Source: a virus. From it: DNA of 26,433 nucleotides. The stretch covers positions 1 through 26,433 of the IMG/VR virus record IMGVR_UViG_3300035680_000077. The stretch is one strand, 5' to 3'. Of this stretch, positions 2,315-21,245 are shown one piece after another (position 1 is the stretch's first letter; each line of letters begins with the position of its first letter). The position numbers were made by a program, and so were the translations under genes. The notes below the pieces were generated by a model that saw nothing but the letters and a program-made list of their open reading frames with translations, was not told where the DNA came from and ran no database searches.

Positions 2315-3086
2315 GGCTGGATAATGATTCCCCAGCCGTTTCCGCTCCAACCCGAAGCTCGTAGTCGTTGAAGTCCTCCCCCTCATTGGGCGATACCCAA
2401 TAGGGGAGGGATGACTGTTTAGCTACCCTGATACCCACAATGTCATGGTCAGCCACTATGAGCGAGTCAGGGTAAGCCTTTGCCATTTCGGATAGGTTAG
2501 ATGCTGAGAAACATACTACGATCTTGTAGCGTGTTTTAATCGTTTTCAAAGCCCTACGGATCGATAAAGCCGTGGCATATCCTTCACACAAAATAACCTG
2601 TCCTTTGTTATCAAAGATCGCAGAAGCGTTCTTGGTTTTCTGTCCGCTTAAAAACTTCTTATTGCCCTCTGGATCGATCAATTGACATCCAACCAAATCC
2701 CCATTAATCCGCATTGGGATTGCCAGCACCTCGTTCCAAACCCATCCCTTTTCTTCTGGAAAGCCCTTTTTCACTAAGTAAGGGTGAGGCTTTTTGACGG
2801 CATTATTTAGGATGTATGCTGCCTTACCGCTTGCCCTGGAATTGTTCTTGGCAACATCGATCACAACTTTTGGCTTTCGGATTACTTGTAAAGGGTCATG
2901 CTTGCCACGAAAGCTAATAGGTTTCTCGTGGACTGCCCAATTCTGCACCGCACCCGTTATCCCATCGAATATATACGAGCCATTCTTTTTGTTTGGCTTA
3001 TCAACAGTCCTACATCTTGTCCATTTATCGTGAACCAAGTGATCGATGATTAGTCCATGCTTCTCTGCAAACGATTCAAAATTCAT
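2289..3086 (-). CDS. TOPRIM domain protein, phage primase-like
   Basis: The 265-residue product has the catalytic core of a TOPRIM domain: VILCEGYATALS near residues 164-175 supplies the conserved glutamate (E168), and VADHD near 211-215 supplies the DxD metal-binding pair. An EGEDFND block follows at 235-241. The N-terminal 100 residues resemble the region before the TOPRIM fold in phage primases, and HPYLVKKGF (101-109) is typical of this group. Such proteins make RNA primers, usually fused to or partnered with a helicase. No Walker motifs are present here, so any helicase function must be a separate protein. The start codon overlaps the methyltransferase stop by 4 bases. The gene ends against the plus-strand left cluster. 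Confidence 0.85.
   Translation of the reverse strand: MNFESFAEKHGLIIDHLVHDKWTRCRTVDKPNKKNGSYIFDGITGAVQNWAVHEKPISFRGKHDPLQVIRKPKVVIDVAKNNSRASGKAAYILNNAVKKPHPYLVKKGFPEEKGWVWNEVLAIPMRINGDLVGCQLIDPEGNKKFLSGQKTKNASAIFDNKGQVILCEGYATALSIRRALKTIKTRYKIVVCFSASNLSEMAKAYPDSLIVADHDIVGIRVAKQSSLPYWVSPNEGEDFNDYELRVGAETAGESLSSLIQNRTPQ
2315..2337. terminator. Hairpin between converging operons
   Basis: GGCTGG and CCAGCC (6 base pairs, 11-base loop) form a hairpin directly after the last plus-strand stop and inside the 3' end of the minus-strand TOPRIM gene. In the leftward reading it is followed by TTATACAAAA; there is no long U tract on either strand. The position between two converging units suggests a weak bidirectional terminator. 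Confidence 0.35.
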
Positions 3087-4318
3087 AGCATTCCCTTTTC
3101 TACCATTTCAACCCGCTCTCCAATCCATTTCATGCATGGGACTGCCATCGAATTACCCATCGCTTTATACCGAAGACTGTCGGGAGATTCGGGCTTGCCT
3201 CTCCAAGCGATGTTCGTATAGTTATCTGGGAATCCTTGGAGTCTTTCGCATTCGACAGGGGTTAGCCTACGAACCGCCATTTGCTGGGCAATAAAAGTTT
3301 GAGCATGATGACTTTGGACGGAGGGTCGGAGTGCTTGGAGGGCTGGGGTTACTTCCAAAGGGGTGGCACTAAAGTTACCCGCTATTGCATCTTCCCGAAT
3401 GGAATACGCCACTCCTTGAGTAGCGGCCGCATCAAGGGTATACATCAAACCTTCATCATTCCAACCACGCCCATTCTGGGCCTTATCTCTGCCTGAGATA
3501 TCCTGTAATGCAATCGGCACATTACCACCACCCGTCCCCCAGCGAGAGGTTACAGTCTGGCAAACATCACCCATCTCTCTTACTCGGGAGTCTGCTGGGT
3601 GAGTTTCATACACACAAGGGATTAGTCTTCCGCTGTATGCGTCTTGTCCGCTATAAGCTCCGGGGTGGGTATCTGCACAGAGTGTTCCAACTGTTCTTTG
3701 GATGCCGTTGCCATCAAAGCGTCCTTGAGAACTGTTGGAAGTTTTTTCCCTCGATTTTCTGCTCTCCTCAGTATCCCTTGACAAGCAATCTGGCTCAAAA
3801 AGAACCTTTGATGCAGAGACCCAGTCTCCAAGACATCCGACAACAAAGACTCTTCTGCGTCTTTGGGGGATTCCGAAATACTGAGCGTCAAGCACTCGGT
3901 ATGCGAACCCATACCCGAGTTCTGCCACCGCCCCGAGGAAGGAACCAAAATCCCGTCCACCACTTGAACTGAGGACACCTGGGACGTTTTCCCAAACAAA
4001 CCATTTGGGTTTGAATCGATCAAGAATTCCAGTATAGACAAGGGTGAGGTTTCCTCTTGGGTCTTCGAGTCCTTTCCTAAGTCCTGCGACTGAGAATGCT
4101 TGGCATGGTGTTCCTCCAACCAAAAGTTCAACTGTTCCATTGATGTTCCACTCCTTATATTTTGTGATGTCCCCAAGATTTGGGACTGTTGGGTAATGAT
4201 GATTTAAAACTGCCGATGGGAAGGTTTCGATCTCGGCATAGCCAATCGGATCCCAGCCTAAGGGATGCCAAGCAACTGTTGCTGCCTCCACCCCCGAACA
4301 CACTGATAAGTATTTCAT
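3083..4318 (-). CDS. DNA (cytosine-5-)-methyltransferase
   Basis: The 411-residue product carries the ordered motifs of C5-cytosine methyltransferases: an SAM-binding motif I variant (LSVCSGVEAATVAW, residues 4-17), the catalytic PCQ of motif IV (71-73, nucleophile C72), ENV of motif VI (110-112), QRRRR of motif VIII (152-156), RLTPVECERLQGFPD of motif IX (351-365) and GNSMAVP of motif X (388-394). All key residues are intact. The stretch of about 180 residues between motifs VIII and IX is where target recognition lies. No restriction endonuclease gene is adjacent, so this looks like a solitary phage enzyme that would mark phage DNA or block host restriction. It overlaps its upstream neighbour by ATGA. 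Confidence 0.95.
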   Translation of the reverse strand: MKYLSVCSGVEAATVAWHPLGWDPIGYAEIETFPSAVLNHHYPTVPNLGDITKYKEWNINGTVELLVGGTPCQAFSVAGLRKGLEDPRGNLTLVYTGILDRFKPKWFVWENVPGVLSSSGGRDFGSFLGAVAELGYGFAYRVLDAQYFGIPQRRRRVFVVGCLGDWVSASKVLFEPDCLSRDTEESRKSREKTSNSSQGRFDGNGIQRTVGTLCADTHPGAYSGQDAYSGRLIPCVYETHPADSRVREMGDVCQTVTSRWGTGGGNVPIALQDISGRDKAQNGRGWNDEGLMYTLDAAATQGVAYSIREDAIAGNFSATPLEVTPALQALRPSVQSHHAQTFIAQQMAVRRLTPVECERLQGFPDNYTNIAWRGKPESPDSLRYKAMGNSMAVPCMKWIGERVEMVEKGML

Positions 4319-12778: not shown

Positions 12779-12948
12779 TGGTCACAATGCTTAATATGTT
12801 TGCTTTGTTCGTAGCCACCTGTGCTGTGCTTATCTTTGCCGTGGTCTTTGCCTTCTTCCTGTTCATTATGTATGCCTGTATACACATTGGGTGGAGAGAG
12901 ATTAAAGGAATATCGATGTCTGAGTTATGGGAGAGGATTCAGAAATGA
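12775..12948 (+). CDS. Small membrane protein, 57 aa
   Basis: The product has a long hydrophobic stretch (about residues 5-36, rich in leucine, valine, phenylalanine and alanine), enough for one long or two short membrane helices, followed by a charged C-terminal tail (WREIKGISMSELWERIQK). Two ATGs stand in tandem at the start, the first in an ATGA overlap with the previous gene. Holin-like size is noted, but there is no endolysin nearby in the window. No family was recognised. Confidence 0.65.
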   Translation: MMVTMLNMFALFVATCAVLIFAVVFAFFLFIMYACIHIGWREIKGISMSELWERIQK

Positions 12949-13595
12949 CATTCTTAGTTGCTAACATACCACCAGTCAAATGCTTTGTGCGTAGAGAGTT
13001 TCTTTACAACCACGAGTCAGGGCATGGAGAACTAGAGCCATGCGTATGGATGACTGCCAAGGCGATCAAGGGTCAAGCGTTTCGCATAGAGTCGATGCTA
13101 ACTAACTATGGGGCGTTGTACGACAAGCTACCAATCCATGCCTATGTATGGAAAGAAGTAGCCGAGCCGTTGCCGTTAGATCATTTACAGATATGGGATT
13201 GCCTATCATATGACATGGCGGTGATTGAGAAGTCAAACCTACGTGGGCTAAAGGTCAAGTTCTTTGGTAAAGACAAACAGTTTCACTTTGGCAACTACCT
13301 GTTTACCATTGACTTTGCCTCGCCCGAATCTAACAGACTAGATACTAGCTTTTCAGAGGGTGTTGAGGAGCATAAGTCGTATAACTTTATACGCCTAGAT
13401 AACGGGCAGTTTGCCTGCCAGCCCAACAATCGTTGCTTATGGTATGACGTATCGCTTGTGCCTGCTGTCTTAAAGACCCCTGACTTCAAGATACCCACCG
13501 AGGTATATAGCGTTGAGAACCACGCTAAGTGGAGTGCTAAGGATGAATGGTTTTATAACTTTGAAAATATAGAAGAAAAACAGGGGATTCAATGA
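12945..13595 (+). CDS. Conserved phage protein upstream of the dpdA-like gene, 216 aa
   Basis: The start is the ATG in the overlap with the membrane protein gene; the product begins MTFLVANIPPVKCFVRREFL. Conserved-looking blocks are GHGELEPCVWMTAKAI (27-42), a long aromatic-rich middle with LQIWDCLSYDMAV, and a C-terminal block with LWYDVSLVPAV. There is no signal peptide or recognised enzyme motif. I recall related proteins in other environmental phages with no assigned role. ATGA coupling to the transglycosylase gene makes it a candidate third component of that pathway, which is inference from position only. Confidence 0.7.
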   Translation: MTFLVANIPPVKCFVRREFLYNHESGHGELEPCVWMTAKAIKGQAFRIESMLTNYGALYDKLPIHAYVWKEVAEPLPLDHLQIWDCLSYDMAVIEKSNLRGLKVKFFGKDKQFHFGNYLFTIDFASPESNRLDTSFSEGVEEHKSYNFIRLDNGQFACQPNNRCLWYDVSLVPAVLKTPDFKIPTEVYSVENHAKWSAKDEWFYNFENIEEKQGIQ

Positions 13596-14329
13596 TTCAT
13601 TATCATGGGTTGCCTATTACACCAGCAACAGTTGCAAACTATGCGGTGCAAGCTGGTCATGCATTTGTGTCTTTTGCTCACCCTGACCAAATTGGAACAG
13701 CCATTGAAGTATGCCAATCATTTGCTTTAGACAATGGTGCGTTTAGTGCTTGGAAGTCAGGCAAGCCCATTAAAGATTGGACTGAGTTCTACGATTGGGC
13801 ATTAAACCTTAAAAAAGTACCATCGTGTGATTTTGCTTGTATTCCAGATGTAATTGATGGAACAGAAGCTGACAATAATGCTTTGCTAAAAGATTGCCCA
13901 TTACCACATTGGTTTGGTTCTCCTGTATGGCATTTGCATGAATCTTTAGAAAGATTAGAGCAGTTGGCTAATACCTATGTTCGGGTCTGCTTGGGTAGTT
14001 CAGGCGAATATGCCACAGTTGGCACTAACGCTTGGTGGTCAAGAATGGGTGCTGCTATGCGAGTTATTTGCGATGATATGGGAAGACCTATATGTAAACT
14101 ACATGGGCTTAGAATGTTAGACCCCGCAGTATTTACTAAGTTTCCATTTAGCTCTACAGACAGCACAAACATTGGCAGAAATGTAGGCATAGATAAACAT
14201 TGGAAGAATGGTAATTATCCACCTCCCACTAAAGAAGCTAGGGCGCAAGTAATGAGATCTAGAATTGAATCTCATAATGCCCCGCCAGTATGGAACTTTA
14301 TGCAAGTAGAACAGGATGGTTTATTTTGA
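13592..14329 (+). CDS. dpdA: DpdA-like 7-deazaguanine DNA transglycosylase (TGT superfamily)
   Basis: The 245-residue product resembles the short phage DpdA enzymes, relatives of tRNA-guanine transglycosylase that exchange guanine in DNA for a 7-deazaguanine base. Visible features in order: YHGLPITP near the start (4-11), FVSFAHP (25-31), DNGAFSAW with candidate catalytic D47 matching the DSGGFQ block of TGT, IPDVIDG (84-90), VWHLHE (112-117), CLGSSGEY (133-140) matching the GG..GE substrate loop, and KLHGLRMLDP (169-178) followed by SSTDSTNIGR, where D190 sits at the nucleophile position. It is far shorter than tRNA-acting TGTs and lacks their zinc-binding cysteine cluster, as expected for DpdA. 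It is coupled to queD by a TTGA overlap. No biochemical proof is possible from sequence. Confidence 0.8.
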   Translation: MIHYHGLPITPATVANYAVQAGHAFVSFAHPDQIGTAIEVCQSFALDNGAFSAWKSGKPIKDWTEFYDWALNLKKVPSCDFACIPDVIDGTEADNNALLKDCPLPHWFGSPVWHLHESLERLEQLANTYVRVCLGSSGEYATVGTNAWWSRMGAAMRVICDDMGRPICKLHGLRMLDPAVFTKFPFSSTDSTNIGRNVGIDKHWKNGNYPPPTKEARAQVMRSRIESHNAPPVWNFMQVEQDGLF

Positions 14330-14697
14330 AATTAACTCAAACTTTTTTCTTTGATGCTGCACACACTTTAAACAGAGCAGTTAATGTTTATGACCATATC
14401 AAGTCTAAAAACATACATGGACATACCTACCACGCTAGTATTTCGATAGAGGGTGAACCAAACAAAAATGGCATGGTTAAGGATTTTAAGGATATAAAAC
14501 AAGCTGTAGATGCTATTCGCTACGCTTTAGACCATGAACTACTAGACAATGTCCCTGAACTTGGTATTCCAACCTTAGAAAACCTTTGCTTGTTTATTGC
14601 AAAAAAACTTAAAAGTATTAATGTTTGCGAAGTAACTGTAGAACGAAAAGCTTTAGGTGATAAATGTACTTATACATTAGAAAAGGAAGAAAAATGA
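14326..14697 (+). CDS. queD: QueD-like 6-carboxy-tetrahydropterin synthase
   Basis: The 123-residue product fits the QueD/6-pyruvoyl-tetrahydropterin synthase family: zinc-binding histidines in FDAAHTL (H13) and IHGHTY (H31, H33), a GMVKDF block (49-54), LDHELLDN (68-75, catalytic D69 and H70), PTLENLC (82-88) and VER with E107. QueD turns dihydroneopterin triphosphate into carboxy-tetrahydropterin, the second step of preQ0 synthesis. The catalytic cysteine four residues before HGH is Ser27 here; I recall serine at this place in a proteobacterial QueD-like subgroup. The start is a TTG overlapping the dpdA stop (TTGA), with AGGAT upstream; an ATG 36 bases earlier would add unrelated residues. 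With dpdA it points to phage DNA modification. Confidence 0.88.
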   Translation: MKLTQTFFFDAAHTLNRAVNVYDHIKSKNIHGHTYHASISIEGEPNKNGMVKDFKDIKQAVDAIRYALDHELLDNVPELGIPTLENLCLFIAKKLKSINVCEVTVERKALGDKCTYTLEKEEK

Positions 14698-15308: not shown

Positions 15309-18300
15309 CTACTTAGACTTACGGATGTCTTCCATCTGTTTGGCAATGTCCGACATTAGGATCTTGATACGGTTCATCTCAGCCCGTTTGTCATCGGTAT
15401 TAATGTCTTTACTATTCTCAATAATACGGCTTTGTTTGCGTAACTCAGCCAACTGTTTGGTAGCTTTGTCATAGACTTTGGACAGGGCAATCTTGTCACC
15501 CTTCTCTTCCATAATCTTGGTGACTTTCTCCATATCTCCCAGCTCGGCATAGTGACGCATATCCGCCAAAGCAGACTGTAGCCTGGCGTTATTCTCATAA
15601 AACTGAGTCATATACTTAGATTGGGTCTCTGGCTCGGTTTTAATAAATCCCATAGCCAAGGTATCAATCACAGGCTTACGAACCCGTGTACCCTCTCTAA
15701 ATGGCTCTACGGCTAGATCTGCGGTGGACGCTGCGGTAGCACCCATCCATCCTAAATAGGACTTGATAAAGTAATCCATCTGGACTGGAGAAATACCCTG
15801 TGCGTCTGGGTTAAATGTCAAAACTTTTGCGGCTCCTTCGGATACACCGCCCAGTGTTTGAGCTATAACACTAGTCCTATTGGTCATACGCTCTTGCTTA
15901 GACAGTCTTTCCATACCAGCAGATTCAATCGGCGCCCCTGTGAAGCTGTCCTTATTTGCATAGATGTCAATCAAAGGCTTAATCATCTGTGGCATTGGGT
16001 TTAAAGAGAAGGTGTCCATGAGGATGTGATTTAAGCGTTCTGCAAAGACCTTACCTTCTACGCCCTCGTCAGCCAACTGTTCGTAGGTTCTCTCGGCAAT
16101 CGTCCCCAAAGCACCAATCTCAAATGGCTTAGGAATACGGAATGCCACATCACCAATCTTGAACCACCAGAAGTTATCCCGATCCCAACCTTCCCGTCTT
16201 TGGAAGTCTTCATCGTCCTTGTAGATTCCATAGAGGAGAACCGATGCCAGCATGATGGCACTGGACATGGTCATAAAGCGTTGGGCTTTTTGCTTATCAG
16301 ACAGGCTTGTTTCTTTGCCAGTCGTGGCGTTATAGATTAAACGATAGGTTGGTGTGATACCGTCTCTTCCAAGTTTATAAAGACCTTGTAAACGGGCGTT
16401 AAAGAAGGGAACTAACGAAGCAATGACTTTGACAGTACGGAACTGCCCTTGCATCGAGAAGTCCATTAAGTCTCTGGCTGCAAAGGATGCTTCAAGATGG
16501 GACTTACCGCTGTCCCGTAATTTTCTATATAGAGCTAGACGGTTGGCGTTCTCAAACTTATTACCTAATTCGTTATAGTTATTTAATAAGTCTTGGAACA
16601 TCCCTTTAATTTTTTCAGGGCTATCAAGAATGGTTGTTTCTTTAATGCCCTTGTCGATTAATCGCTTAATCATCTTAGCCTGGTCGCCTTCGTGAGCTGT
16701 ACCCATCTCAAAGATACCGCCACCAGCCAACGCTGCCATAAAAGTTGGATCGCCCTTTTTAGACATCCGTAAGCCGTTATATACGTTCTCAATCATATTC
16801 GGGCCTAACTCTGATACTGCGGCAGAGGACATCGAATCACGGATTAAGTTGCGGATCTTATAGGCTGGGGATAGGGTGACACCATACCGTAAGGCATTTG
16901 TAAACCCTTTGGCAATATCCAAGAACGCACTCTTAGGACCTAGATAGGAAATTGTAGAGATAGCGTCTACTAGATCTGGATCGGATAAGGCGTAGTGAAC
17001 GGTCTTACCATTCTCCATAAACTTAATAGTATTGGGAGGGTACTTGCCATCCATAGGCTTAACCTTCTCCGCGGCTCCCATAGATTCCGCATCGTTAATG
17101 GTTTGATTGGTTGCCTGATTTTTCATCGAAGCAGACAGGATGTGAGACCAATTCAAAAGCACATTCTCCATGAGGTCGTTGACCTTCTTCTCCCCGCCTT
17201 TTAAAGCCTTGGAGAAGTACTGGCCTGTTAATTTAGAGGATGCGTTAACGGCATCTACACTACCGTCTTCCATTTGTTTATAGAATGGGATGTAGTAAAT
17301 GTCGTTAGAGAAAACCTGATAGGCAGCGTTATCAATTAAACCTGTCTCTCTTGCAATATCCAAGACCGACTTGTTTAATTGATTTTCTTCCTGTAAGGCT
17401 TTGTCATAGAGTTCTTTACGGGATTTACCATTTAACTTGCCTTGGGATAATTTATCCCGCAACTGAATGGTAGCGTCATCAAATGACCGTTTATCAGGAG
17501 GCATCCGTGCATCACGATTCAGAGCTTTCCACATTTGATATTGGTCTACCTCAGTGCCTAATGGCTCTAGGATTGCCAGCAAGCCTTTTGTATTGGGACG
17601 AATATCTAACGCTCCGTCCTTCAAGTAAACCTGACCATGCTCTAAAAGTCCCTGTAAACCGCCATCGATGGACTTCGATAAACGAGCCATCATATAGCCT
17701 TCGGTTGAGTACTTTTTGATTGCTCGGAACTCGTCAAAGACACCCGTAATAAACCGCTCAAAGAAGTTATCTTTTAGATTCTCAAACTTCTGTCCTACGG
17801 TAGCCTCTTCTTGAACAAACTGTTTACGCAGTAAGTTCTTTTCATCTTCAGTCAGCCCTTCAAAGGTACCCTTCATTTCTTTTTGAAATAAAGTTCCTTG
17901 ACCAGATGCGCCCTTTTTGCCCGTTGGTTTCTGACCAAAGCTATATCCTCTAGATATAATCCGATCGCCAATCATATCAATATCTTCGCTAAGAACAGAC
18001 TCAGAAGTTCTGATCAAACGATCTAAGGCAGATTCGTAGTCCTTGTTGATGCCAAGAATCTCTCTAATTAACTGTACTAATTTGGTAAATGCGGTCTTCT
18101 CGCCAACTTTAATCTCGCTCAAGAAGGTTTGCATATCCTTATCGGTTAATCCCCAAGAAACTAACTCATCAATGTTGCGTAATGCGTTAATTTCTTTGTT
18201 ATATATCCGTTGCATAAACGGAGTAAGTTCCTTCTTTGCAATTTTTTCGTTGTAGTATTTGACAACCTGATTGCGTAAATCGTTTAATTCAACCACCAAT

Positions 18301-21245
18301 TTATCGTTCTTAGACTCCGTGAATAGTTGACCGCTGGTGGCAACGTGCAACAACTCATGCAAAATAGTTGTATAGTTCATGCCAGATGGATAGCCAAATT
18401 GATTGTCTAATATGGCTGCACCATTGAGATTTAACTCTATATTGGCTAATATGTTGGCAGAATAATCAAAGTTTACAGAACCTTTAGCTTCCATCATTTT
18501 GACTGGTCTTTTACTACCAGAATGAATAACAAAGCTCAACTTAATGCCACGGGCTTCGATCTCTTTGATCCGCTTGTTTACCATTTTGGCAATTACTTTA
18601 GCAAACTTATTAGGTGCGTTCTTGACAGACCAGTCAGATACCTCGGTAATTGTTTTGCCAGTTAATTCTTTTTCAAGAAGTTGATCTTCTTTGGAAATCT
18701 TAGATGGTTTGCCGCCTTCCCGAGACTCTAAAGTTCCTTTTCCTTCAGCGTCTCCCTTAAACTCTTCTGCAATAGCCTCCTCTGGAGCGCCTTTTAGCTT
18801 GTTCTCTAGGTATTCAATGTTGTTTTGAATGGACTCCAAATCCCTTATGACACGAATGTTTTGGGGCGTTGGCACGAATCCACCATCAACCGATGTGCGG
18901 ATTAGTTCTCTAAAGTCACTAACACCACCGTCTACGCTATTTAGATCTACATCGGCTGCCGTTAGGATGTTTTGCTCAATAGCAATCCTTAATAAATCAT
19001 CAAGGAACATACCGCCCTTGCGGAATAGACGATTGGGAATCCGTTTATCAATACCAATATCAGCCCTCTCGGACGGATCAATTCCAAAGCCCATCATCCA
19101 TTTCTTAAATTCATCTGGCTCTTTTTCAAGTTTTTCTTTGCGTTTATACAGCTCTAGTATTTCTACTTGATCGGGATTTGGATTAACAAGAACATTTTCG
19201 GTTAACTCCCTTTCGCCATCCTTGTACTTGGCAAAACGTTTTTTGCCCTTTTGAACAATGGTTCCGTATTTAGTCTGGATGTTTCCCTCTGGATCAATGA
19301 ACACAAACTGTTCTTGACCTTCCGCCTTACCTTCTATTTCTAGGGGAGGATTGAGGATGTCATAGATATATTGAGGGGTAAGGAACTCAGTACGATTTAG
19401 ATAAGTGTCAATATTGTCTTTAACTATCTGGCTCTTTGATTGATCCTTAAATGCCATCAACTTAGCACGGACTCGATCGGCATTCTCAGGGACGGATAAG
19501 TCGGCATTAAGTACTTCTGGATCTTGATAGATTGTAGCGACTGGGTTAATGCCTAAGCCTTTTAAGACTTCTGACGAAACAATATTATTAAACGCAGACA
19601 GGGCGGCTTTATCTACATCTTTAGACTGTATAAACTTGTCATATTCATCGTAAATCTTCTTGATCTCTGGGCGGTCTTTAAAGCCTTTAATCATGCGGTC
19701 ACGAAGAGCCTTAGCATCTGCCTCTGGAGTGGTCGTAGCCTCGGTAATCTGGGTAGGCGTTTCCGATACAGGCAGAGGTTGGAACTCGGGCCTTGTTAGG
19801 TAGTCTTCAATATTCTTACGAATCGTAGGATTGGCTTTTGGATACCTTTTAAGGTAGTCCTGAAGAGCTTCTTTAACCTTAGCTGCTTCTTGTGGGTTAG
19901 CAATATCTGCACCCAAAATATCTTGGTTTTTATACAGATTAGCCTTGGGAGAGATACCAAAAGACCTAATGCGGTCGGCATCAAAAGTACGATCTTTAAT
20001 CTGCTCTGGGCTGGCAATCCCATACTTCTCTCTAAAGCCCTCCTCAGACAGTTCTGAGGTAGCGGTAGGGGCAAACTGAGTACGCTCGCTAGGAAAGATC
20101 GTAGTGCCGTCAGGATTGACAATAATCGGGGTATAAACTCCGCTACCCTCTACGGTGGGGTCATAACCAATTGCTAGATTTACTTGTTGTGGTTGAAGGG
20201 TTTCGGCTGCCTTACGTTTGGCTTCTTCCAGTTGGGCTTTGGCTCTCTCTAACTCAACCGCATTCGCTTTATTTAAAAAACTGGCAGGTAGACCAAATAA
20301 AGCACCACCAACAGCTCCAAGACCAGCGGCTGCACCTACTCCCTTAAGGACATCTGTTTCGGGTGCTACACCCTGTAATTGAACATTTGAGATTAATTGA
20401 CCGCCACCCTCTTCTACGGCTTCGCTGAGGGTCTCGCCCAAGGTTCCACGGATAATCCCTGTCTTGGGGACTCCAGCCATGCCACGAGTTAAAGCTTTTT
20501 CAATGGTAGAGCCAGCTCCAAAAGATGTGCCAACTGTAAGGGCTGCGGCTTGAACGGCTGCCATACGACCACGAGATAAAGCCTCTCTCATGGCGGTTTG
20601 ATCATCAACGCCCTGACTAATTAATTCGTTATAAACATTCTCATAGGTTGCTGTACCAATGTCTGCGCCTTGCATGGTAGCGCCTGTACCAATCGCACCA
20701 CGAACACCCGCTTTGGCAAAGACATCATCGGTAGCGTTTTTCATGGCTACTTTGACTACGCCACGAGTCAATAAGCCACCGCCCATTGTTCCAATTAGGT
20801 TGGGAATTTGTTCAAAAATAAAGGAGCTAAGTAAAGCTGGATCTTTAAGAGTCTGCCCAATAGCAGTACCAGCCTCATCTAAAAGACCTTCTGCTTGGGA
20901 AATCTTTTGACTTCTTAGAGTTTCTTTAGCTCTTAATGCAGGCGACTTGGCTTCTTCGGAAAATGCTTCAAGCCGTTTACCAACTCCTTGAAGTCCCGTG
21001 GTTTCATCTGGACGTCCTGTGATAAGACCAGAAACTTGCCCCGGAATCTGAAGCAATGAGCCAATTCCTTTACCAATTGGAGCTACAACATCGGTAGCCA
21101 TTTCACCAATGGTTCTGCTTTGTTTGGCTAATATCTCAGGAAATTGGGGGAGAATATCTCGCTCAATGGCATTTTTAATTTCTTCAGGCGCCATTGTGTC
21201 AGGGAAACTAACCTGACCGACCCCTTCGACATTGACAATCGGCAT
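15309..21245 (-). CDS. Giant polyvalent internal virion protein, 1978 aa
   Basis: The start MPIVNVEGVGQVSFPD with an EEIKNAIERDI helix is a common N-terminus of podoviral internal virion proteins. A glycine- and alanine-rich hydrophobic region follows (about 50-320). HELLH at residues 963-967 is a zincin-type metallopeptidase motif. Around residues 1440-1800 the pattern (LRYGVTLSPAYKIRNLIRDS and later SPVQMDYFIKSYLGWMG) matches the large polyvalent protein-associated domain LPD38. The last 110 residues are a charged coiled coil. Such proteins are packed in the particle and probably enter the cell with the DNA to help ejection or counter host functions. It is last in the leftward virion operon. 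Confidence 0.8.
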   Translation of the reverse strand: MPIVNVEGVGQVSFPDTMAPEEIKNAIERDILPQFPEILAKQSRTIGEMATDVVAPIGKGIGSLLQIPGQVSGLITGRPDETTGLQGVGKRLEAFSEEAKSPALRAKETLRSQKISQAEGLLDEAGTAIGQTLKDPALLSSFIFEQIPNLIGTMGGGLLTRGVVKVAMKNATDDVFAKAGVRGAIGTGATMQGADIGTATYENVYNELISQGVDDQTAMREALSRGRMAAVQAAALTVGTSFGAGSTIEKALTRGMAGVPKTGIIRGTLGETLSEAVEEGGGQLISNVQLQGVAPETDVLKGVGAAAGLGAVGGALFGLPASFLNKANAVELERAKAQLEEAKRKAAETLQPQQVNLAIGYDPTVEGSGVYTPIIVNPDGTTIFPSERTQFAPTATSELSEEGFREKYGIASPEQIKDRTFDADRIRSFGISPKANLYKNQDILGADIANPQEAAKVKEALQDYLKRYPKANPTIRKNIEDYLTRPEFQPLPVSETPTQITEATTTPEADAKALRDRMIKGFKDRPEIKKIYDEYDKFIQSKDVDKAALSAFNNIVSSEVLKGLGINPVATIYQDPEVLNADLSVPENADRVRAKLMAFKDQSKSQIVKDNIDTYLNRTEFLTPQYIYDILNPPLEIEGKAEGQEQFVFIDPEGNIQTKYGTIVQKGKKRFAKYKDGERELTENVLVNPNPDQVEILELYKRKEKLEKEPDEFKKWMMGFGIDPSERADIGIDKRIPNRLFRKGGMFLDDLLRIAIEQNILTAADVDLNSVDGGVSDFRELIRTSVDGGFVPTPQNIRVIRDLESIQNNIEYLENKLKGAPEEAIAEEFKGDAEGKGTLESREGGKPSKISKEDQLLEKELTGKTITEVSDWSVKNAPNKFAKVIAKMVNKRIKEIEARGIKLSFVIHSGSKRPVKMMEAKGSVNFDYSANILANIELNLNGAAILDNQFGYPSGMNYTTILHELLHVATSGQLFTESKNDKLVVELNDLRNQVVKYYNEKIAKKELTPFMQRIYNKEINALRNIDELVSWGLTDKDMQTFLSEIKVGEKTAFTKLVQLIREILGINKDYESALDRLIRTSESVLSEDIDMIGDRIISRGYSFGQKPTGKKGASGQGTLFQKEMKGTFEGLTEDEKNLLRKQFVQEEATVGQKFENLKDNFFERFITGVFDEFRAIKKYSTEGYMMARLSKSIDGGLQGLLEHGQVYLKDGALDIRPNTKGLLAILEPLGTEVDQYQMWKALNRDARMPPDKRSFDDATIQLRDKLSQGKLNGKSRKELYDKALQEENQLNKSVLDIARETGLIDNAAYQVFSNDIYYIPFYKQMEDGSVDAVNASSKLTGQYFSKALKGGEKKVNDLMENVLLNWSHILSASMKNQATNQTINDAESMGAAEKVKPMDGKYPPNTIKFMENGKTVHYALSDPDLVDAISTISYLGPKSAFLDIAKGFTNALRYGVTLSPAYKIRNLIRDSMSSAAVSELGPNMIENVYNGLRMSKKGDPTFMAALAGGGIFEMGTAHEGDQAKMIKRLIDKGIKETTILDSPEKIKGMFQDLLNNYNELGNKFENANRLALYRKLRDSGKSHLEASFAARDLMDFSMQGQFRTVKVIASLVPFFNARLQGLYKLGRDGITPTYRLIYNATTGKETSLSDKQKAQRFMTMSSAIMLASVLLYGIYKDDEDFQRREGWDRDNFWWFKIGDVAFRIPKPFEIGALGTIAERTYEQLADEGVEGKVFAERLNHILMDTFSLNPMPQMIKPLIDIYANKDSFTGAPIESAGMERLSKQERMTNRTSVIAQTLGGVSEGAAKVLTFNPDAQGISPVQMDYFIKSYLGWMGATAASTADLAVEPFREGTRVRKPVIDTLAMGFIKTEPETQSKYMTQFYENNARLQSALADMRHYAELGDMEKVTKIMEEKGDKIALSKVYDKATKQLAELRKQSRIIENSKDINTDDKRAEMNRIKILMSDIAKQMEDIRKSK

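Follow-up and report, generated by a model that had tools for sequence, protein, structure and literature searches.

A short dpdA gene and the queD-like gene that overlaps it in a phage genome probably form a cassette for 7-deazaguanine modification of DNA, to which the phage contributes a single precursor-supply gene. In the proposed mechanism, the short DpdA would replace selected guanines of phage DNA with a 7-deazaguanine, either preQ0 or the amide ADG, by TGT base-exchange chemistry with D190 as the nucleophile and D47 as the general acid/base. The bacterial host would contribute FolE, QueE and QueC, and the phage gene overlapping dpdA downstream, here a host Ser-type QueD, would raise precursor supply; in related phages a YhhQ/VUT-type transporter would take the place of QueD, and rarely QueE would be added. 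The benefit that we infer for DpdA, along with this substrate and inserted base, is that sites would be hidden from host restriction.

The window (the whole stretch of 26,433 nucleotides analysed here, from viral record IMGVR_UViG_3300035680_000077) carries the dpdA-like gene at 13592..14329 on the plus strand, where an ATG start opens a 245-aa TGT-fold transglycosylase. The queD-like gene (PTPS/COG0720) follows at 14326..14697 on the same strand and encodes 123 aa when read from TTG. The two share a TTGA stop/start overlap at 14326..14329, visible in the sequence as a preliminary description of this DNA had claimed, and queD is best read from the TTG at 14326; its longest ORF begins at an ATG at 14290, inside dpdA. 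Across 46 queD-bearing relatives and the window, the 3' end of dpdA is TTGA in 39 of 47 copies and TTAA in 7, while in locus L035 dpdA ends in ATGA and queD lies upstream of it. The operon reaches beyond the two genes described earlier, to an upstream gene at 12927..13595 (plus strand) that overlaps dpdA by ATGA and to a small downstream gene coupled to queD by an ATGA at 14694-14697; the operon is thus compact, with ATGA overlaps flanking the pair. Purifying selection acts on dpdA as well as on queD: among pairs passing a saturation filter, the median dN/dS of the former was 0.061 (508 pairs) and that of the latter 0.123 (258 pairs, highest value 0.552).

The upstream gene belongs to phrog_3704, is present in only 5 of the 80 viral dpdA loci analysed (L002, L003, L004, L006 and L020) and is not core to the locus. 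Its PHROG label, 'ferredoxin', looks doubtful, and Pfam gave no match to its protein at E ≤ 0.1. Elsewhere in the window, an open reading frame on the minus strand (15309-21245) encodes a protein of 1978 aa, very large for a phage. The C5-cytosine DNA methyltransferase named in the preliminary description is indeed encoded, at 3083..4318 on the minus strand (PF00145, 2e-52), at a position that gives no link to dpdA-queD; the doubly modified genome proposed from it is speculation drawn solely from the presence of that gene.

Profile searches place the 245-aa protein in phrog_887, 'queuine tRNA-ribosyltransferase' (3.2e-69). No family was matched in Pfam or NCBIfam at E ≤ 0.1, nor in PADLOC at E ≤ 1; the Pfam TGT family PF01702 was absent from these matches and from the families of the 26 aligned members, and the bacterial DpdA equivalog NF041059 was likewise not matched in NCBIfam (E ≤ 0.1). 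Searches of PDB sequences with the protein or its profile each returned one chance-level match, and hhalign comparisons with E. coli TGT (0.2%) and with the bacterial DpdA of locus L271 (0.6%) were weak. An AlphaFold2 model was built from 26 sequences (pLDDT 88.2, pTM 0.87). Foldseek alone gave nothing at E ≤ 0.001; its leading hits were TIM barrels, with tryptophan synthase alpha at the head, and the first TGT, arcTGT 1j2b, came at rank 23 (TM 0.59). With VIA-align, applied to 999 of the 1000 top-ranked Foldseek chains, all 50 rows listed belonged to the TGT superfamily (Z 16.0-13.5 over 211-233 residues), headed by Cap10-CdnD 9ntn_B (Z 16.0) and arcTGT 1j2b (15.5), with Thermotoga TGT 2ash (14.4), Zymomonas TGT (about 14) and DpdA 7ui4 (13.6) lower down. 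The non-TGT folds preferred by Foldseek are ruled out by this comparison, and the predicted structure is a TGT-superfamily TIM barrel, a fold whose absence would have told against the earlier reading. Matches of the model in BFVD include phage 'queuine tRNA-ribosyltransferase' models.

The active-site motifs, D47 in DNGAF, D190 in SSTDSTN and the CLGSSGEY loop, all fall where they had been placed before. Neither D47 nor D190 varies among the 26 aligned sequences, and in an hhalign comparison with the DpdA of phage 9g (96.1%) the 9g motifs LDSGAFSA and SCDSS fall on these two residues. The base-exchange chemistry of TGT enzymes and the 9g alignment together point to D190 as the likely nucleophile and D47 as the likely general acid/base. 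The tRNA TGTs also have a C-terminal zinc site, CxCxxC...H; no Cys is invariant or nearly so in the alignment of 26 sequences, so a zinc site of the TGT type is absent by sequence. Further DpdA subfamilies were reportedly described in a 2023 NAR paper, from which the name DpdL is said to come; a literature search for that name gave unrelated papers only.

The position behind dpdA appears to be a slot for precursor supply. A scan of viral contigs with dpdA gave 481 relatives, and among the best 80, which were analysed, queD adjoins dpdA in 46 (45 at +1 and 1 at -1), a VUT/YhhQ-type precursor transporter lies near dpdA in 18 (16 at +1 and 2 at +2), the two occur together in none, and neither is found in 16, one of which is cut off within dpdA. 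In these last 16, no known supply gene adjoins dpdA, which weighs against the cassette reading. The slot counts among the best 80 of 481 exclude a chance neighbourhood of two unrelated genes, and when queD alone was the query, dpdA adjoined it in each of the 26 loci obtained (23 of the contigs were already in the dpdA scan). The one transporter scanned matched PF02592 (Vut_1) over the cut-off (1.6e-12), and its best NCBIfam match, TIGR00697 'queuosine precursor transporter', was under the cut-off. Like queD, the transporter has a possible start that overlaps the dpdA stop by 4 bases in 16 of 18 cases: in 12 this is the start of the longest ORF, and in 4 more the longest ORF begins 36 bases further upstream in frame, with TTGA or ATGA at the dpdA stop. 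Acinetobacter phage AB3P2 and the viral loci L153, L157, L158, L159 and L162 have a transporter gene adjacent to dpdA as well; in a Nitrosomonadales MAG (L179) it lies 216 bases downstream of dpdA.

A few loci add QueE. In L075 it stands beside the pair and matches the equivalog TIGR04508 at 314 bits, over a cut-off of 240, and in L011 it is an intact ORF of 209 aa directly upstream of dpdA; a broken QueE in L011, suggested by a TAA counted within the match, was rejected on that ground. Slot content needs at least 11 changes on the 75-row dpdA tree, whose bootstrap had not settled; the well-supported branches force only 2 for queD, 3 for VUT and 5 for none. In L044 (8699-8911), the start of the longest queD frame, MELYASRT inside dpdA, remains while a different short gene replaces queD after dpdA, an apparent trace of gene swapping at the slot. 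Six of the 80 loci (L006, L038, L054, L062, L063 and L079) have a PAPS-reductase-like ATP-pyrophosphatase (cluster 39; PF01507, 3.6e-05) no more than 3.5 kb from dpdA. Bacterial loci speak against a close tie between dpdA and a supply gene: among 60 bacterial loci with dpdA relatives, a queD-like frame is adjacent in 2 only (58 of 60 are without queD) and a transporter is near dpdA in 1. Two Acidobacteria MAGs (L186 and L221) have dpdA followed by a Cys-type queD, which is an independent pairing. Phage YhhQ homologues have been described, in the account of their distribution, as uncorrelated with any specific phage group (PMC6884629). The titles and abstract openings of the literature searched describe neither the dpdA-transporter slot, the dpdA-queD slot nor a Ser-type QueD.

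The identification of the second gene as a QueD homologue stands for family and fold but not for the QueD signature. The protein matches Pfam PTPS PF01242 (2.1e-25, 89.4 bits over a cut-off of 22.4), and VIA-align superposes it on E. coli QueD 4ntm with Z 15.0 (rmsd 2.7, 112 aligned). Its zinc ligands H13, H31 and H33 and the pair D69 and H70 are invariant in 25 of 25 sequences. Against TIGR03367 (QueD), however, it scores 79.2 bits, below the cut-off of 89.25, and Ser27 replaces the catalytic Cys in the motif SxxIHGH. This Ser, aligned to the Cys of 2oba and 4ntm, is present in 46 of 46 relatives and in the window, and the residue after it varies across the 46 copies (E 20, K 16, N 6, R 2, Q 1, T 1). 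Among the signatures given for the family are CxxxHGH for PTPS-I and ExxHGH for PTPS-III (PMC5041015). The Ser-type QueD fits neither the PTPS-I nor the PTPS-II signature, and the ExxHGH of PTPS-III is found in only 20 of the 46 copies.

That Ser27 marks a dead gene was considered and rejected, given the median dN/dS of queD, the invariance of the Ser and the existence of host copies. The latter were surveyed in 60 genomes of the family of Variovorax guangxiensis, of which 33 have a PTPS and 21 exactly one match; of these single-PTPS genomes, 19 are Ser-type, 1 is not and 1 is unclassified. In the Ser-type-only genomes queE lies within the same locus of about 3.3 kb in 18 of 19 and QueC is present in 19 of 19. 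Host loci with the Ser type (SxxI/VHGH) are L254, L260, L261, L273 and L275-L293. Ser-type queD was also found in dpd islands, namely dpdC-dpdB-dpdA-dpdB-queC-queE-queD with dpdE nearby in Variovorax guangxiensis (L271) and dpdC-dpdB-dpdA-dpdB-queC-queD in Cupriavidus necator (L272), where queE was not seen in the island. Judged from these sequences, the Ser-type QueD is a host type that is common beside queE in the Variovorax family. On the QueD tree, which has long branches and an unsettled bootstrap, the phage copies form one clade (99/96) within the Ser type, and nearest to them is a copy from a Variovorax-family genome (97/80, with the same unsettled bootstrap). Since the phage clade lies within the Ser type and hosts have Ser copies, Ser27 would most simply be inherited from a bacterial QueD of the Ser kind rather than arise by decay.

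Two further arrangements were seen in the course of this survey. An unannotated human gut phage record, MT835580 (L178), carries dpdB, dpdA, dpdB, queE, a Ser-type queD and queC consecutively, and no second PTPS was found in the 50 of its 55 kb that were covered. In the Variovorax family and two Roseateles genomes, triple-PTPS fusions occur as one frame of 379-743 codons with three HGH motifs, of which only the middle one has Cys, adjoining queE (L294-L296, L298-L301, L257 and L258).

With only QueD encoded beside DpdA, the preliminary description had left the remaining pathway genes either to the host or to another part of the phage genome. Bases 13740-40172 of the contig IMGVR_UViG_3300035682_000039 (60,291 bases) match the window at 100% identity, and an exact 127-base terminal repeat marks this contig, by that sign, as a complete genome. 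None of queC, queE and folE was found in this contig (QueE by one query), which turns aside a location elsewhere in the phage genome and favours the host as the source. Across viral records, most of which are fragments, QueC (PF06508) was over the cut-off in 0 of 27 and FolE in 0 of 30, the 60,291-base contig included in both cases; one partial QueC match in another record (G018) was under the cut-off at 16.1 bits. QueE, searched with the L075 protein as a single query, was found in 3 of 32 viral records, again mostly fragments and with L075 itself one of the three, and was absent from the window and the 60,291-base contig. On the bacterial side, the 60 loci with dpdA relatives belong largely to Burkholderiales and Pseudomonas, and QueC and a full TGT were present in 11 of 11 searched genomes carrying a dpdA relative. 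As all the dpdA-bearing genomes searched have both, host supply of the queC, queE and folE steps is plausible.

The predicted modification of DNA draws support from the TGT fold and from the nearest studied relatives, which occur in phages with measured dADG. Among 50,697 phage records, 115 hold a relative of the window DpdA (Vibrio 43, Salmonella 24, Escherichia 20), as do many bacterial genomes; the protein of Escherichia phage PhiR5_1, whose host is E. coli C, is 48% identical. DpdA is 40% identical to MED16 gp38 over 241 columns and 32% identical to gp032 of Salmonella phage 7-11 over 229 columns, and both of these phages are reported, in the accounts of their modification genes, to have dpdA without preQ0 genes (PMC8306585; PMC6884629). 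MED16 DNA is given as containing dADG at about 0.13% of G, and its authors state that the restriction enzymes tested were inhibited minimally (PMC8306585). For 7-11, Table 2 of PMC6884629 lists 50 dADG per 10^6 nt, or about 0.02% of G, so the measured relatives span about 0.02-0.13% of G. A base so sparse, with minimal inhibition of restriction in MED16, makes protection doubtful and another main target possible. Such low levels also hint that insertion may be specific for certain sequences.

Such a target could be tRNA: the cassette would raise the content of queuosine or preQ bases in the tRNA of host or phage, and with it translation. QueD and precursor transporters are also used for tRNA queuosine, and the PHROG label of DpdA, 'queuine tRNA-ribosyltransferase', agrees with this. 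We consider it very unlikely: the enzyme has only 245 aa, no invariant Cys and no TGT-type zinc site by sequence, a full TGT is already present in the 11 searched genomes with a dpdA relative, the nearest studied DpdA relatives are tied to DNA, and Ser-type queD is found in dpd DNA islands too. A protein target is still less probable in our judgement. There, the short TGT-fold enzyme would bind or handle 7-deazaguanine on a protein, helping the phage to attack a host protein or evade one. The model would be Cap10 of type IV CBASS, a member of a protein-deazaguanylation system; it is reported to be a transglycosylase in remodelled form and to bind a CD-NTase at its NDG-modified N-terminus (PMC11996544). 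Cap10-CdnD heads the VIA-align rows and the levels of DNA base in phages with DpdA relatives are tiny, but the Z of Cap10 is tied with that of arcTGT, DpdA has no PADLOC match at E ≤ 1 (a set that may not include Cap10), and none of 27 phage records held a QueC/Cap9-like gene scoring above the family cut-off. The exchange chemistry also seems to be kept, since the invariant D47 and D190 have their counterparts in 9g DpdA.

The other doubt concerns the base rather than its target. If the QueD-like protein were a changed PTPS with another product, the DNA base would be neither preQ0 nor ADG, and the universal Ser in place of the catalytic Cys, followed by a residue that gives neither CxxxHGH nor a constant ExxHGH, could be read in that way. 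This has a slim chance at best, as the Ser type is the sole PTPS found in 19 of the 60 Variovorax-family genomes, with queE in the same locus in 18 and QueC in all 19. Less remote, although still on the doubtful side, is a combined reading in which the slot for one supply gene is swappable (Ser-type QueD or a VUT/YhhQ importer, in few cases with QueE) and the Ser-type QueD represents a PTPS class of its own, so far unrecognised, that dispenses with the catalytic Cys and works by Ser-based chemistry or towards another product; the phage might then use a base other than preQ0/ADG, or the enzyme might act mainly on something other than DNA. A DNA 7-deazaguanine cassette with one phage supply gene is the reading we prefer as the probable one. 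Counting against it are the sparse base in relatives, the fold tie with Cap10, the weak sequence links to bacterial DpdA and E. coli TGT, and a QueD that falls short of its signature and family cut-off.

The base levels measured so far are very low. Where a relative carries a precursor gene or importer of its own, modification may be stronger, which would make the role of short DpdA enzymes testable. A Ser-type QueD that is the sole PTPS found in 19 sampled QueC-bearing genomes calls into question the catalytic Cys thought to be essential.

Among known systems, the singleton DpdA enzymes of MED16 and 7-11 are of the same length class, share 32-40% identity and the same catalytic motifs, and leave the precursor pathway to the host; they differ in having no preQ0 gene, whereas here a supply gene overlaps dpdA. 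The full pathways of 9g and CAjan (folE, queD, queE, queC or gat-queC, and dpdA) likewise combine a transglycosylase with QueD, and 9g DpdA aligns with the D47/D190 motifs, but the pair in the window has only QueD, 9g DpdA is 317 aa long against 245 aa here, and 9g QueD retains its Cys (SKCRHLHGH). Cap10 of type IV CBASS has a TGT-superfamily fold and the top structural row, tied with arcTGT, although its Cap9/QueC-like partner was not found in the phage and the catalytic Asp pair is conserved here. The bacterial dpd islands of Variovorax and Cupriavidus hold a Ser-type queD as well, whereas no dpd name occurs among the scanned neighbours of the phage pair and the phage DpdA fails NF041059. 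On the preferred reading, the phage DpdA would use a host-made base, and the gene overlapping dpdA would be a swappable source of precursor.
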